Below, in pieces: positions 6,312 to 20,828 of a DNA stretch of 24,521 nt. Below the pieces are notes generated by a model. That model was not told where the DNA came from, ran no database searches, and saw only the letters and a list, made by a program, of their open reading frames with translations. Every line of letters begins with the position of its first letter. The stretch's first letter is position 1. A program made the translations under genes and the position numbers. Source of the DNA: a virus; the IMG/VR virus record IMGVR_UViG_3300045049_000251, positions 1 through 24,521 of that record. One strand, given 5' to 3'.

Positions 6312-6393
6312 GCCACCGCCGCCGCGTCCCCATCAACCGAAGCACATCCTGTAGCCGATCGGGCCGACGCGTGCGGCGGGGAATGGAGTTGCC

Positions 6394-14927: not shown

Positions 14928-16472
14928 ATGCCCGTTGTCCAGCAGGGCGCGATCAACACGAACGCGCTCTACGTGCCCGACGTCTATGTCCAGATCGTGC
15001 CGCCGTCGCAGAATTATCTGAACGGCGTGCCGACCAACGTGCTCGGCATCGTCGGCACGGCGCAGTGGGGTCCGGTCAATTCGCCGACCACGGTGAGCGG
15101 CCTGTCGGACTTCGTGCCGCAGTTCGGCAACGTCCAGGCGCGCAAATATGATCTCGGCACCGCCGTCTGGGCCGCGCAGCTGAACGGCGCGAACAACATG
15201 CGCATCGTGCGCGTGACCGACGGCACCGACGTTGCGGCCTCCGCGACGATCGGCACCAATGGCCTGACCGTCACCGGTAAATATACCGGCTCGCTCGGAA
15301 ACAAGATCCAGGTCACGATCGCGACCGGCTCGGCTGCCAACAGCTGGAAGGTCACAGTCGCGCTCCCCGGCCTCGCACCGGAGGTGTTCGACAATCTTGC
15401 GGCTGGACTCTCCGGCAATGCGGTCTGGGTGGCGCTCGCGGCCGCGATCAATGCTGGTGCCTCGGCCCTGCGCGGCCCATCGCAGCTGGTCACCGCCGCT
15501 GCCGGCGCAGGCACCGGCACGCCTTCGGCTGGCACGACGACGCTGACTGGCGGCACCGACGGTGCGACCACAATCACCGGCTCGGTTCTGATCGGCCAGG
15601 ATACGACGCCCCGCAAGGGAATGTACGCGCTCCGCTCGACCGGCTGTGCGGTGGCCTTCCTCGCCGATTGCGACGACTCCACGACCTGGGCGACGCAAGT
15701 GGCATTTGCCCTGTCCGAGGGTATCTACATGATCGGTGCCGGTCCGGCGGGCGATACGGTCGCGAACGCCGTGTCGACCAAGGGCACCGCCGCGATCGAC
15801 AGCTACGCGTTCAAGCTGATGTTCGGCGACTGGATTTATTTCAACGACACGGTCAACAGCCAGGTCCGCCTGATCTCGCCGCAGGGCTTCGTTGCCGGTC
15901 GCCTGTCCGCGCTCTCGCCGCAGGAATCGTCCCTCAACAAGCAGCTGTACGGAATCGCCGGCACGCAGAAGTCGGCAGCGACCGCGGGCGTGAACGTCTA
16001 TTCGGCGGCCGACCTGCAGACGCTGGCGCAAGCCGGCATCGACGTGATCGCGAACCCCTGTCCGGGCGGCGCCTATTTCGGCGTCCGCCTTGGATGCAAT
16101 ACGAGCTCCAATGCCGTCATCAATGGCGACAACTATCCGCGCCTGACCTTCTATATCGCTTATACGCTCAACAACGGCATGGGCATCTATGTGGGCCAGC
16201 TGCAGAGCCCCGCGACCCGCCAAAAGGCACTCGGCACGCTCAACGCCTTCCTGTCCAACATGTGGACGCAAGGCATGATCGGCGATGTCTCGGACGCCTC
16301 CAAGCAGCCCTTCTCGGTCGAGATCGACAACGCCAACAACCCGCAGCCCCGCGTGGCGCTCGGCTACATGCAGGCCGACGTGCGGGTCACGTACCTGTCG
16401 ATCATCACCAAGTTCCTGATCAACGTCGAAGGCGGCCAGTCGGTCGTCGTGACGCCCACCGCCGCGCAGTAA
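14928..16472 (+). CDS. contractile tail sheath protein
   Basis: AAGGAG precedes ATG 14928. The 514-residue protein shows sheath features: an N-terminal PTNVLGIVGTAQWGPVNSPT entry strand, then LNGANNMRIVRVTDGTDVAA, a domain insertion around GKYTGSLGNKIQVTIATGSA, and the conserved C-terminal domain from DTTPRKGMYALRSTGCAVAF to YLSIITKFLINVEGG, where neighbouring subunits exchange strands. The sheath surrounds the tube and contracts to drive it through the host envelope, so the virion is a myovirus type. The next gene is the tube. Confidence 0.92.
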   Translation: MPVVQQGAINTNALYVPDVYVQIVPPSQNYLNGVPTNVLGIVGTAQWGPVNSPTTVSGLSDFVPQFGNVQARKYDLGTAVWAAQLNGANNMRIVRVTDGTDVAASATIGTNGLTVTGKYTGSLGNKIQVTIATGSAANSWKVTVALPGLAPEVFDNLAAGLSGNAVWVALAAAINAGASALRGPSQLVTAAAGAGTGTPSAGTTTLTGGTDGATTITGSVLIGQDTTPRKGMYALRSTGCAVAFLADCDDSTTWATQVAFALSEGIYMIGAGPAGDTVANAVSTKGTAAIDSYAFKLMFGDWIYFNDTVNSQVRLISPQGFVAGRLSALSPQESSLNKQLYGIAGTQKSAATAGVNVYSAADLQTLAQAGIDVIANPCPGGAYFGVRLGCNTSSNAVINGDNYPRLTFYIAYTLNNGMGIYVGQLQSPATRQKALGTLNAFLSNMWTQGMIGDVSDASKQPFSVEIDNANNPQPRVALGYMQADVRVTYLSIITKFLINVEGGQSVVVTPTAAQ

Positions 16473-16484
16473 GGAGCATAGCAC

Positions 16485-16919
16485 ATGCCTCAACAGGGCT
16501 TTTCCGTCGGCCGCGACGTATCGACGGTGCTGATCCTCGCGGACGGCTCGTCGCTCCCGCTCGAAAAGGTCACGGGCTTCAATGCGAAGCCCGACACGTC
16601 CACCCAGAAGGTCAAGGGCCTCGACGGCACCATCATCAACCTGCGCTGGCATGAGGGCTGGTCTGGCTCGTTCATGATCGAGCGCCGGTCCGCGCTGATC
16701 GACCAGTATTTCGCGCAGGTGGAGGCCGATTATCACGCCGGGCAGGACGAGAAGCCGGCCACGCTCCAGCAGACGATCCAGGAGCCGGACGGCACGATCT
16801 CGCAGTATCGCTTCACCGAAGTGCTGCTGACCTATGACGATGCCGGCGACTGGGCGGCCGACAAGACCGTCAGCCAGAAGATCGGTTTCGTCGCCCACCG
16901 TCGCATCCAGCAGGCCTGA
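16485..16919 (+). CDS. tail tube protein
   Basis: AAGGAG precedes ATG 16485. The 144-residue protein lies immediately after the sheath and begins GRDVSTVLILADGSSLPLEK, with LRWHEGWSGSFMIERRSALI and YRFTEVLLTYDDAGDWAADK. It has the size and beta-sandwich look of Mu gpM/PBSX XkdM-like tube subunits, which stack as hexamers to form the inner channel of contractile tails. The call rests on position after the sheath and the pattern. Confidence 0.82.
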   Translation: MPQQGFSVGRDVSTVLILADGSSLPLEKVTGFNAKPDTSTQKVKGLDGTIINLRWHEGWSGSFMIERRSALIDQYFAQVEADYHAGQDEKPATLQQTIQEPDGTISQYRFTEVLLTYDDAGDWAADKTVSQKIGFVAHRRIQQA

Positions 16920-16921
16920 TC

Positions 16922-17287
16922 ATGGTTGCCGCAAAAGCAAAGGTGCAGCTCGTGGAAACGCCGAGCCAGCAGATGAAGGCCGCGACGCAGTTCGAGGTGA
17001 CTGACGAGCGCGGACGCGTGTTCGTGCTCGCGAAGCCCGATGTGCTGGCCCAGTTCCGGCTGGTCGAGGCGCTGGGCGAGACGGCGATGAACCAGGCCTA
17101 TATGGGCATGGTGTTCCCGCTGCTCTTCATCCGCGCAATCGACGGCGAGGCGGTCAGCTCGCTCCACAACAAGCTCGAGGTTGAGGCGCTGATCAAGCGG
17201 CTCGACGAGGACGGCATCCAAGCCGTCACGCTCGGCGTGCACGAGCACTTCGCCCAGCCGTCGGAGGCCGCACTAAAAAACGGCTGA
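16922..17287 (+). CDS. tail assembly chaperone, short (0-frame) product
   Basis: The 121-residue product ends EAALKNG at TGA 17285-17287. It sits between tube and tape measure, where tailed phages encode the chaperone pair (lambda G/GT, P2 E/E+E', Mu gp41-type). Visible segments include ATQFEVTDERGRVFVLAKPD and RAIDGEAVSSLHNKLEVEAL, typical of the G-type N domain. The last codons CTA AAA AAC form a slippery heptamer from which a -1 shift would make the longer 182-residue form. It is predicted to bind the tape measure protein during tail assembly and to be absent from the virion. Confidence 0.85.
   Translation: MVAAKAKVQLVETPSQQMKAATQFEVTDERGRVFVLAKPDVLAQFRLVEALGETAMNQAYMGMVFPLLFIRAIDGEAVSSLHNKLEVEALIKRLDEDGIQAVTLGVHEHFAQPSEAALKNG
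17275..17281 (+). promoter_or_regulatory. programmed -1 frameshift slippery heptamer
   Basis: A AAA AAC lies in the correct phase (0-frame codons AAA 17276-17278 and AAC 17279-17281), two codons before the 0-frame stop. This is the canonical X XXY YYZ site for simultaneous tRNA slippage. A hairpin begins 7 nt downstream. The -1 frame then stays open to 17469. Confidence 0.9.
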
Positions 17288-17469
17288 GACGGATCGCCAC
17301 CAACCCGGCGATCCGTGAATCGATGGCGCTGGTGAAAGCCGGCGTCCCCTTCGATCTGGCTTTCTCCATGGACGAGGACTGGCGGCGCGCGCTCTGCATC
17401 GTTGCTGGCGAGAATGAGGGCGGCGAATTCGACTGGTCCTCTATGTCGTGGAAGGAGCCGCAGACGTGA
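17281..17469 (+). CDS. tail assembly chaperone, -1 frame extension (T part)
   Basis: This frame has no good start of its own for its full length. It is joined to residue Asn120 of the upstream frame by the -1 shift, adding 62 residues (RLRRIATNPAIRESMALVKA to SMSWKEPQT) to give a 182-residue fusion. The extension is well composed (FDLAFSMDEDWRRALCIVAG) with GC-rich wobble positions, so it is coding. Its stop TGA 17467-17469 overlaps the next GTG start. In lambda and relatives the T domain recruits tube subunits to the tape measure complex; the same role is inferred here. Confidence 0.85.
   Translation, partial: RLRRIATNPAIRESMALVKAGVPFDLAFSMDEDWRRALCIVAGENEGGEFDWSSMSWKEPQT
17289..17316 (+). 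promoter_or_regulatory. frameshift-stimulating hairpin
   Basis: ACGGATCGCC (17289-17298) and GGCGATCCGT (17307-17316) are perfectly complementary over 10 bp, enclosing an 8-nt loop. The 7-nt spacer from the slippery site is the usual distance for a stimulator that pauses the ribosome. It lies inside the -1 extension frame. Confidence 0.85.
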
Positions 17470-17957
17470 TCGAATTCCCGACGCTGGGCCACCTCGCTGA
17501 CCATTTCCTGCGCGAAACCGCGGGCGAGTTGGTCATCGTCCGCGAGGCGATCCAGCCGGGCCTCGATGCCGCTTCTGCGCTCATCGAGAAAGAGGCCAAG
17601 GCCGAGTTCGGCACCTATCAGCAGGGCATCGGCCCCTTCGGCGATTGGCCGGAACTGGCCGACGCCACCAAGGAAGACCGCGTCCGGCAGGGGTATCCCG
17701 AAAATGAGCCGCTTCTCCGCTCCGGCGAGCTACGCGACAGCATCGAGCGCGAGGTCGACCATTTCGAAGCGACCGTCGGCTCGAAGAGCGAGATCATGCT
17801 CTATCAGGAGCTTGGCACGCAGCGCATCCCGCCGCGCCCGGTGCTTGGCATCGCTTTGCAGCGCTGCTGGCCGCAAATCCAGGCGCTGATCGGCAAGGCC
17901 GCGGCGGCCGGGTTCTGCGGCGGCGGTCCGATCAATCGGCCGGGGTATGAACTCTAG
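17466..17957 (+). CDS. virion morphogenesis protein (Mu gpG / HK97 gp10-like)
   Basis: I choose GTG 17466 because GGAAGGAG (17450-17457) lies 8 nt upstream and it overlaps the frameshift-product stop as GTGA; GTG 17448 would lie upstream of that ribosome site. The 163-residue product has PLLRSGELRDSIEREVDHFE and EIMLYQELGTQRIPPRPVLG, the pattern of the phage virion morphogenesis/HK97 gp10 family (tail completion or head-tail joining). Its stop TAG shares the palindrome CTAG with the stop of a convergent minus-strand gene. Confidence 0.75.
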   Translation: MIEFPTLGHLADHFLRETAGELVIVREAIQPGLDAASALIEKEAKAEFGTYQQGIGPFGDWPELADATKEDRVRQGYPENEPLLRSGELRDSIEREVDHFEATVGSKSEIMLYQELGTQRIPPRPVLGIALQRCWPQIQALIGKAAAAGFCGGGPINRPGYEL

Positions 17958-18778: not shown

Positions 18779-18982
18779 TTACCCCAGCAGCGTCACCGCC
18801 ACCACGGCGAAGCCCAGCGCGACGCCGCCCCAGATCAGCATCATCGCCCAGCCAAACAGACCCCAGCGGAGCGTGAGCCCGAGCCAGTCCCGGGGCGGTC
18901 GAACGACACGAAAGAGCGGCGGGTGCGGCACGAATGCCCACCGATCAGCTGCCCAGGTCTGAACCCTTTGGAGTTGCCGCAT
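18779..18982 (-). CDS. putative small membrane protein, 67 aa
   Basis: The minus-strand frame from ATG 18982 to TAA 18781-18779 encodes a basic, Pro/Trp-rich N-terminal part (LFRVVRPPRDWLGLTLRWGL) and a hydrophobic C terminus (FGWAMMLIWGGVALGFAVVA, then VTLLG), one or two membrane helices. The second half has strongly GC-rich third codon positions on this strand. The AAGGA upstream of ATG 18982 is too close to be ideal; GTG 18931 is an alternative start. The ATG shares CATG with the divergent tape measure start. No plus-strand gene explains these 200 nt. It ends next to operator O2. Function unknown. Confidence 0.5.
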   Translation of the reverse strand: MRQLQRVQTWAADRWAFVPHPPLFRVVRPPRDWLGLTLRWGLFGWAMMLIWGGVALGFAVVAVTLLG

Positions 18983-20828
18983 GTCCTTCGCTTATAGCGT
19001 CGCCATCAAGCTGACGGTAGCGAATCTTGCGAGCCAGGGCGTGCGCATGCTCGCCAAGGACTTGCTGGCTGCTCACGGGAGCGCTGTCAGCCTCGGCGAC
19101 AAGCTCAAAGCTCTGAAAATGATCGCCGTCGGCTACGGCATGGAAAAAGCCGGCCAGGGCATGCTAGGCTTCATGGGCAAGGCGATCGACGCGTCGAAGG
19201 AATATACGCGTCAGCTGTCGCTAATGAACGCGGCCGGCATGTCGCACCTCGAGGTTGCCCGCGCCACGGCCGCTGCCTGGCAGACCAGCCGCGATGTCGT
19301 GACGACCTCGGCCGCCGAGAACCTGAAGGCGATCCGCGAACTGCGCTCGGTGTTCGGTGCCGGCGGCATGGGCGAGGCTTATCGGATCCTGCCGACCGTC
19401 CAGCGCACCAAGAGCATTCTCGACGCTCTGACCGGCCGCGAGAACGAAGGCGTGGCCTTCGATATGGTCAAGGCGATCGAGCTGCGCACGCCCGGCCTCA
19501 TGTCCTCGGCGCGCATGCAGTCGAACGCCGACCTGATGGCGCGGGCGCTGATGGCCATGGGCGGCACGCTGAACGCCCACGATTTTCACATGACGCTGAA
19601 GCAGTCGAAGACAGCCGCGTTCGGGCTGTCAGACGACTTCGTTTACAACTACTTGCCGACGCTGATCCAAGAGGTGAAGACCGGCGCGAGTGGGTCAGGC
19701 TCGACCGCCGGTACGGCGCTGATGTCGACTTATTCCGCGATAATCGGGGGCGTGCTGAAGAAATCAGCGATCCCGCTGTGGGAAGCGATGGGCCTGATCA
19801 GCCCGTCGAGCGTGGTCAAGAATTCCACCGGTGCGCTTCAGTTGAAGCCTGGCGCGGTGCGTGGATCTGCGCTGTTCCAATCGAATCCATACGCTTGGGC
19901 GAACGAGGTTCTGGCGCCGGCCATTGCCGCCTACGGCAAATCACATGGTCTGAACCGCGAGCAGGTTATCTCTGGCATGTTCGGCAATCGCAACGCTCAG
20001 TGGCTGATGAACACGCTGATCGCCAAGGCGCCGCAGTTCGAGCGAGACCGCAAGCTGATCGAAAGTGGCGGCAACTCGTACCAGACCTACCAACGCCTGC
20101 TGAAGACGAACCCACAGCTGGCCGGGACGGCGATGCACAACCAGTGGCAGAACGTGCTGTCGATCCTCGGCTATCAGGTGCTGCCGAAGCTCATCCCATG
20201 GATGATCAAGTTCGCGAACGGTCTCGATCGCATTGGCCAGTTCATGGAGCGTCACCCCAATTTGACCGCCGGGCTGGCGATCGGACTTCTCGGTGTCGGC
20301 TCCGCGCTCATTGTGGTCGGCAAAGCCCTCATGACGATCGGGATCATGAAGTTTCTCGGCATGGGCCCGATGATCGGCGGTCTCATGCGCGCGATCGGCA
20401 CGGGCATCATGTTCCTGGGGCGGGCGCTATTCGCCAACCCGATTGGGCTCGTCCTGCTCGCTATCGGCGTCGCGGCTTACGAGGTCTATCAGCACTGGGA
20501 CTGGATCTCGAAGAAACTGAGCACGGTCTGGACGTTCTTGAAGTCGTCCTTCTTCGGCTTCATCAATGGCCTGATCGACCTCGCGAACCACATCCCGTTC
20601 GTGCACCTCAACCACATCGGCGGCGGTGCGCCACAGAGCTCATACGTTCCTCCCGCTCACAAAATGGAGCAGCGCGGCGGCGACGTCTATCTGGACGGAA
20701 AGAAGGTCGGCAAGGCCTTGTCGCCCTACCTGACCGGACACTTCGCGAACGACATGTCGCGCCCGAACCGCGGCACGTCAGTGTTCGACGGCACGCGGGG
20801 CCCGCTGCGGCCCGCGACTGCGCGATAG
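18981..20828 (+). CDS. tail tape measure protein
   Basis: TGGAG (18969-18973) precedes ATG 18981 by 7 nt. The 615-residue product follows the chaperone frame-pair, as tape measure genes do. It begins with helical, Ala-rich sequence (LTVANLASQGVRMLAKDLLA, MLGFMGKAIDASKEYTRQLS) and has hydrophobic segments near ~427-450 (LTAGLAIGLLGVGSALIVVG) and ~485-503 (ANPIGLVLLAIGVAAYEVY), typical membrane-active parts. Using the general ~1.5 A per residue rule, the tail would be about 90 nm. The C-terminal ~60 residues are Gly/Pro-rich and polar. It sets tail length and is ejected at infection. Confidence 0.88.
   Translation: MSFAYSVAIKLTVANLASQGVRMLAKDLLAAHGSAVSLGDKLKALKMIAVGYGMEKAGQGMLGFMGKAIDASKEYTRQLSLMNAAGMSHLEVARATAAAWQTSRDVVTTSAAENLKAIRELRSVFGAGGMGEAYRILPTVQRTKSILDALTGRENEGVAFDMVKAIELRTPGLMSSARMQSNADLMARALMAMGGTLNAHDFHMTLKQSKTAAFGLSDDFVYNYLPTLIQEVKTGASGSGSTAGTALMSTYSAIIGGVLKKSAIPLWEAMGLISPSSVVKNSTGALQLKPGAVRGSALFQSNPYAWANEVLAPAIAAYGKSHGLNREQVISGMFGNRNAQWLMNTLIAKAPQFERDRKLIESGGNSYQTYQRLLKTNPQLAGTAMHNQWQNVLSILGYQVLPKLIPWMIKFANGLDRIGQFMERHPNLTAGLAIGLLGVGSALIVVGKALMTIGIMKFLGMGPMIGGLMRAIGTGIMFLGRALFANPIGLVLLAIGVAAYEVYQHWDWISKKLSTVWTFLKSSFFGFINGLIDLANHIPFVHLNHIGGGAPQSSYVPPAHKMEQRGGDVYLDGKKVGKALSPYLTGHFANDMSRPNRGTSVFDGTRGPLRPATAR

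Follow-up and report, generated by a model that had tools for sequence, protein, structure and literature searches.

Organization of the locus

The window analyzed here is an entire IMG/VR record of 24,521 bases with a G+C content of 63%, and it carries a tail module in the order sheath, presumed tube, G, T, one or more small genes, and tape measure (Table 1). The 0-frame G ORF ends close to a slippery heptamer that is read in the codons GCA CTA AAA AAC GGC TGA. Downstream of the heptamer, the arms ACGGATCGCC and GGCGATCCGT are 100% complementary (10/10 bp). A −1 shift at this site would join 120 residues to 62 from the T frame, giving a fusion of 182, and the T stop overlaps the start codon of the next gene as GTGA.

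Table 1. Features of the tail module and the putative frameshift site in the window.
Feature	Position	Strand	Basis and remarks
Tail sheath	14928..16472	+	phrog_23, E 1e-45
Presumed tail tube	16485..16919	+	phrog_12993 (unknown function); position is the sole basis of the name
G-type tail assembly chaperone ORF, 121 aa, 0 frame	16922..17287	+	Stop TGA 17285-17287; phrog_20383, E 1e-30; AlphaFold model with best PDB match 2ob9
GGAGG, possible Shine-Dalgarno-like stimulator	17263..17267	+	7 nt upstream of heptamer; sequence
Slippery heptamer A AAA AAC, in phase	17275..17281	+	Sequence; XXXYYYZ in 28/30 loci
T-type extension, −1 frame, 62 codons	17281..17469	+	Stop TGA 17467-17469; open homologous frame in 30/30 loci; dN/dS among relatives
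7-nt spacer GGCTGAG, holding the 0-frame stop	17282..17288	+	Sequence
5' arm of 10-bp stem, ACGGATCGCC	17289..17298	+	
8-nt loop, ACCAACCC	17299..17306	+	
3' arm of 10-bp stem, GGCGATCCGT	17307..17316	+	
Next gene, 163 aa, GTG start	17466..17957	+	Weak match to tail completion/Neck1 families
Tape measure protein	18981..20828	+	phrog_28, E 5e-29

The original prediction had described an in-phase A AAA AAC, a 7-nt spacer, a perfect 10-bp hairpin and an 8-nt loop, and these agree with the sequence base for base; the 62-codon open −1 frame overlapping the next gene was likewise recovered, with its end at 17469 and the GTG at 17466. The heptamer had been placed two codons before the 0-frame stop, and while it does lie near the stop, exactly one sense codon (GGC) intervenes. 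At the predicted fusion junction, trypsin would cut after Lys119 and Arg121 and release only the dipeptide Asn-Arg. Glu-C is predicted to yield the 18-residue product AALKNRLRRIATNPAIRE, with Lys in place of Asn if slippage precedes decoding in the A site.

Elsewhere in the window, positions 1076-1702 strongly match phrog_799, a family of phage DNA methyltransferases.

Identity of the probable tail assembly chaperone

Despite being labeled as a family of unknown function, phrog_20383 is matched by all 29 aligned G proteins, whereas only 2 of the 30 T parts have a PHROG match of any kind. Neither G nor T convincingly matched a Pfam family, the members giving scattered weak matches to unrelated families. 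At the limits applied, neither part had a match when its sequence was searched against the phage collection, and a sequence search of the PDB returned only chance-level matches for G (the best, an alpha-amylase, at E 0.045) and none for T.

The AlphaFold model of G, with a mean pLDDT of 83.7, has as its top PDB match 2ob9, the tail assembly chaperone of HK97, at a weak Foldseek score (E 0.17, probability 0.72). A second look at Foldseek's list again placed 2ob9 first, with Z 5.6 and an rmsd of 5.5 over 97 residues at 12% identity; the match is weak, since a Z under 8 can mean a common arrangement only. Taken together, the gene order, the phrog_20383 matches and a fold that scores weakly but falls in the expected family support the reading of this locus as a tail assembly chaperone made in two forms, G and G-T. 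phrog_20383 can therefore be named a tail assembly chaperone. This naming, together with the near-absence of the T half from the family libraries searched, is what is new here.

Conservation of the putative slip site and the T frame

Relatives were collected by a protein search followed by a search with a five-row alignment, which yielded 35 viral and 2 genome loci. With the window and phiKX1 these 37 loci made 39, which were reduced to 30 non-redundant loci at 93% identity. An in-phase XXXYYYZ heptamer is present in 28 of the 30 (13 AAAAAAC, 7 AAAAAAA, 7 AAAAAAG, and one GGGAAAC in L024); L036 was manually reassigned to its AAAAAAC instead of an alternative CCCGGGC, and the positions in L010, L014 and L038 were also set manually. 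The remaining two, L010 (A AAA AGC; near-twin L014) and L038 (A AAG AAG), have no standard heptamer, yet their T frame is still open. An open homologous −1 frame thus occurs in all 30 loci, with 55-65 codons in 29 of them and 43 in L002. Relatives without an in-phase heptamer and an open −1 frame had been named beforehand as evidence that would count against frameshifting, and the comparison, once made, did not refute it.

The T frame of L002 has 43 codons against about 60 (59-60) in the near-identical L003, which suggests a sequencing indel or a truncation.

Plasmid records in which the sheath had a match numbered 10, and 6 of them were retrieved. Of the 8 annotated records obtained in all, seven form a second set of relatives, which shares one member (L039) with the 30 loci; the eighth, phiKX2 (L040), entered only through its identity with phiKX1 in this region. 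A heptamer is present in all seven, with AAAAAAT and CCCTTTG among the forms. In L042, a Rhodovastum plasmid, the site is C CCT TTG at 6372-6378, six codons before the stop; this locus has no A-rich heptamer and keeps its T frame.

The motif by itself carries little weight. AAAAAAC occurs once in the whole window, both strands counted, against 0.76 copies expected by chance, and is therefore not significant on its own, and the single perfect 10-bp stem with a 3-10 nt loop compares with a mean of 0.54 in shuffles. These figures would suit a chance heptamer and hairpin beside a degenerate ORF, or a sequencing error, but such an account would also have to produce the same arrangement in the 28 non-redundant loci and in all seven annotated records. 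As controls we took the ends of 272 further ORFs (minimum length 100 aa) in these loci. Their last eight codons never contain A AAA AAN, and two of the ends carry an XXXYYYZ heptamer of any kind. Given these controls, the recurrence of the heptamer in 28 loci and the open frame in all 30, the arrangement is not due to chance; conservation has already refuted that account, to which we give next to no credence.

Selection on the T frame points in the same direction. Over 253 pairs that are not independent of one another, its median pairwise dN/dS is 0.44, compared with 1.09 and 1.57 for the two alternative readings of that DNA (ungapped comparison, dS 0.02-1.5 kept; the window, L002, L008, L011, L012, L013, L016 and L039 omitted). 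The T frame is under purifying selection among the relatives, and its conserved residues, which begin early, include the G and P of a G-x-P motif, E45 and F51.

A conserved T frame could also be expressed as a separate protein, through re-initiation or an internal start, and the window does have an in-frame ATG 14 codons past the slip site, and in phiKX1 and a Pantoea plasmid ORFs of this kind are listed as genes of their own. However, the first 20 T codons contain no ATG in 26 of the 30 loci, and the first 10 contain no ATG, GTG or TTG in 21 of them, even though conserved residues begin early. Separate expression would moreover leave the conservation of the heptamer without a reason, and we regard it as extremely improbable compared with a G-T fusion.

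RNA structure downstream of the heptamer

The 79-nt stretch from the spacer onward has a predicted folding energy of −38.4 kcal/mol, with z −3.67 against dinucleotide shuffles. When the 60 nt after the heptamer are instead compared with synonymous-codon shuffles, the window has z −2.2 (p 0.018) and the 30 loci a mean z of −1.53, with p < 0.05 in 13 of them and a reversed sign in L016 and L019. Seven control offsets across the loci gave mean z values from −0.68 to +0.04. Among 271 control windows in the genes of the window itself (mean z −0.22), some are as low as the site and the lowest reaches −2.9, so the value for the window would be unconvincing if taken alone; Stouffer sums over the loci ignore kinship and therefore overstate significance. 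By these codon-preserving shuffles, RNA structure just 3' of the heptamer is under selection.

The original prediction had proposed checking whether the stem is conserved while its loop varies; a conserved stem is not supported as worded. The 10-bp stem is not conserved; the relatives form different and often longer stems. In L039, L041, L043, L044 and L046, bases after the heptamer (e.g. GAACCCCG) are predicted to pair with the G-V-P codons (CGGGGTTC), so that the pairing spans about 45 nt with an inner stem inside it, whereas the window has a short local hairpin. By eye, the outer arms at one same place read ACGAACG/CGTTCGT in L002 and ACGGATG/CATCCGT in L004, changed on both sides and still complementary. 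Because the pairing partners differ in this way, structure is conserved as a property and not as one particular stem.

Two further elements in the window may contribute. An ACCA in the loop and a downstream TGGT (17330-17333) could, judged by eye, form a pseudoknot. Upstream, we conjecture that the GGAGG acts as a Shine-Dalgarno-like stimulator, although it is not general across the family.

Slippage of the RNA polymerase on the A run, instead of the ribosome, could likewise generate mRNA in the −1 frame, and runs of 6 or 7 A in most relatives would suit it. The run is no longer than six A in the window, however, and falls to five in L010, and L024 (GGGAAAC) and L042 (CCCTTTG) do without a long run. 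The position of the RNA structure after the heptamer and the preserved codon phase of the heptamers also speak for the ribosome, leaving transcriptional slippage very unlikely.

Proposed mechanism and comparison with known systems

These results make it very likely, in our judgment, that the locus encodes the tail assembly chaperone of a phage whose tail is contractile, and that it uses programmed −1 ribosomal frameshifting of the lambda G/G-T type, as originally predicted; conservation and gene order support this strongly, and the fold weakly. We infer the slippage itself, its efficiency and the roles of both proteins as follows. The majority of ribosomes would terminate at 17287 and release the 121-aa G protein, while a minority, with tRNA-Lys and tRNA-Asn occupying A AAA AAC, would be delayed by the hairpin downstream. 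Both tRNAs would then slip back together by one base, and 62 more codons would be read to give the 182-aa G-T fusion. If the proteins work as in lambda, G may coat the tape measure protein, the T part of the fusion may recruit tail tube subunits, and both proteins may depart before the tail is completed.

The locus resembles lambda G/G-T in its predicted −1 slip, which falls near the end of a gene flanked by the tail tube gene (presumed in the window) and the tape measure gene and would yield one short product and one long one. Lambda slips at G GGA AAG, whereas the window has A AAA AAC, a contractile tail, and G and T parts without a convincing Pfam family. Similarly, E. coli dnaX has an A AAA AAN heptamer, a downstream stem-loop and, as may also be the case here, a Shine-Dalgarno-like sequence upstream. 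The spacing of that sequence is 10 nt in dnaX and 7 nt in the window, and the dnaX frameshift product is the shorter one. According to PMC5009743, the dnaX heptamer is A AAA AAG, and the A AAA AAC found here is much less shift-prone than A AAA AAG in E. coli. The site had been called highly canonical; A AAA AAC is so by the standards of eukaryotic viruses but is described as weak in E. coli. The same review reports A_AAA_AAC as the slip site of a haloarchaeal tailed virus.

Further close parallels are the Komagataeibacter phages phiKX1 and phiKX2 and the Rhodovastum plasmid RHOApg, which share the locus order and a homologous T frame. Their sites read A AAA AAC TGA or A AAA AAT TGA, with the stop immediately after the heptamer, unlike the window, and their stem is longer (about 45-50 nt); the annotation rows shown for them contain no frameshift. 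Our literature search for programmed ribosomal frameshifting in Komagataeibacter phages found none.

Our findings leave the understanding of frameshifting unchanged. The locus is of an ordinary, known kind, in which one gene gives two related tail-assembly helpers, a long-known scheme that is well conserved in the relatives of the window. A further reading, which we consider rather unlikely, is that the heptamer and the T domain persist while the stimulatory RNA is repeatedly rebuilt, as a long stem from the N-P to the G-V-P codons in several members, a compact local 10-bp hairpin in the window and no clear stem in some, and that the last base of the heptamer (C, A or G) may follow which lysine tRNAs the host has. 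If this were true, the family would offer a natural series for the co-evolution of stimulator and slip site inside a coding constraint.

Distribution and annotation of the relatives

The best named relatives of the sheath are on Rhodovastum plasmids (60%, Alphaproteobacteria) and in Komagataeibacter phages, and relatives also occur in beta- and gammaproteobacterial replicons. The site had been put forward as an alphaproteobacterial model, which is unsupported as worded: the relatives span alpha-, beta- and gammaproteobacterial replicons, and alphaproteobacterial cases have already been reported. Caulobacter phage Seuss is annotated with the conserved frameshift product (PMC4591317), and a paper on Rhodobacter capsulatus phages treats frameshifting as usual in most of those that it covers (PMC8601537), so an alphaproteobacterial example is not new. 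Host assignment through the portal and terminase failed, their matches being scattered over many phyla.

Xu, Hendrix and Duda 2004 is cited in PMC4591317, PMC2628397 and PMC5009743. For the 3,679 SEA-PHAGES genomes, PRFect (PMC10885494) reports 2,397 tail chaperone genes that are joined. Standard gene callers had been expected to report only the short product, which is largely true: it holds for five of the seven annotated relatives, while the other two, phiKX1 and Pantoea sp. Lij88, list a fragment of T as a separate gene; the plasmid gene table behind these counts is incomplete, and joined genes cannot appear in it. Gene callers probably overlook the T half, which would explain why PHROGs and Pfam contain so little of it.

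Four of the tail-module relatives, L041, L042, L043 and L045, come from Rhodovastum, Aquitalea and Paraburkholderia plasmid records 27-115 kb in size; these plasmids may be phage-plasmids.
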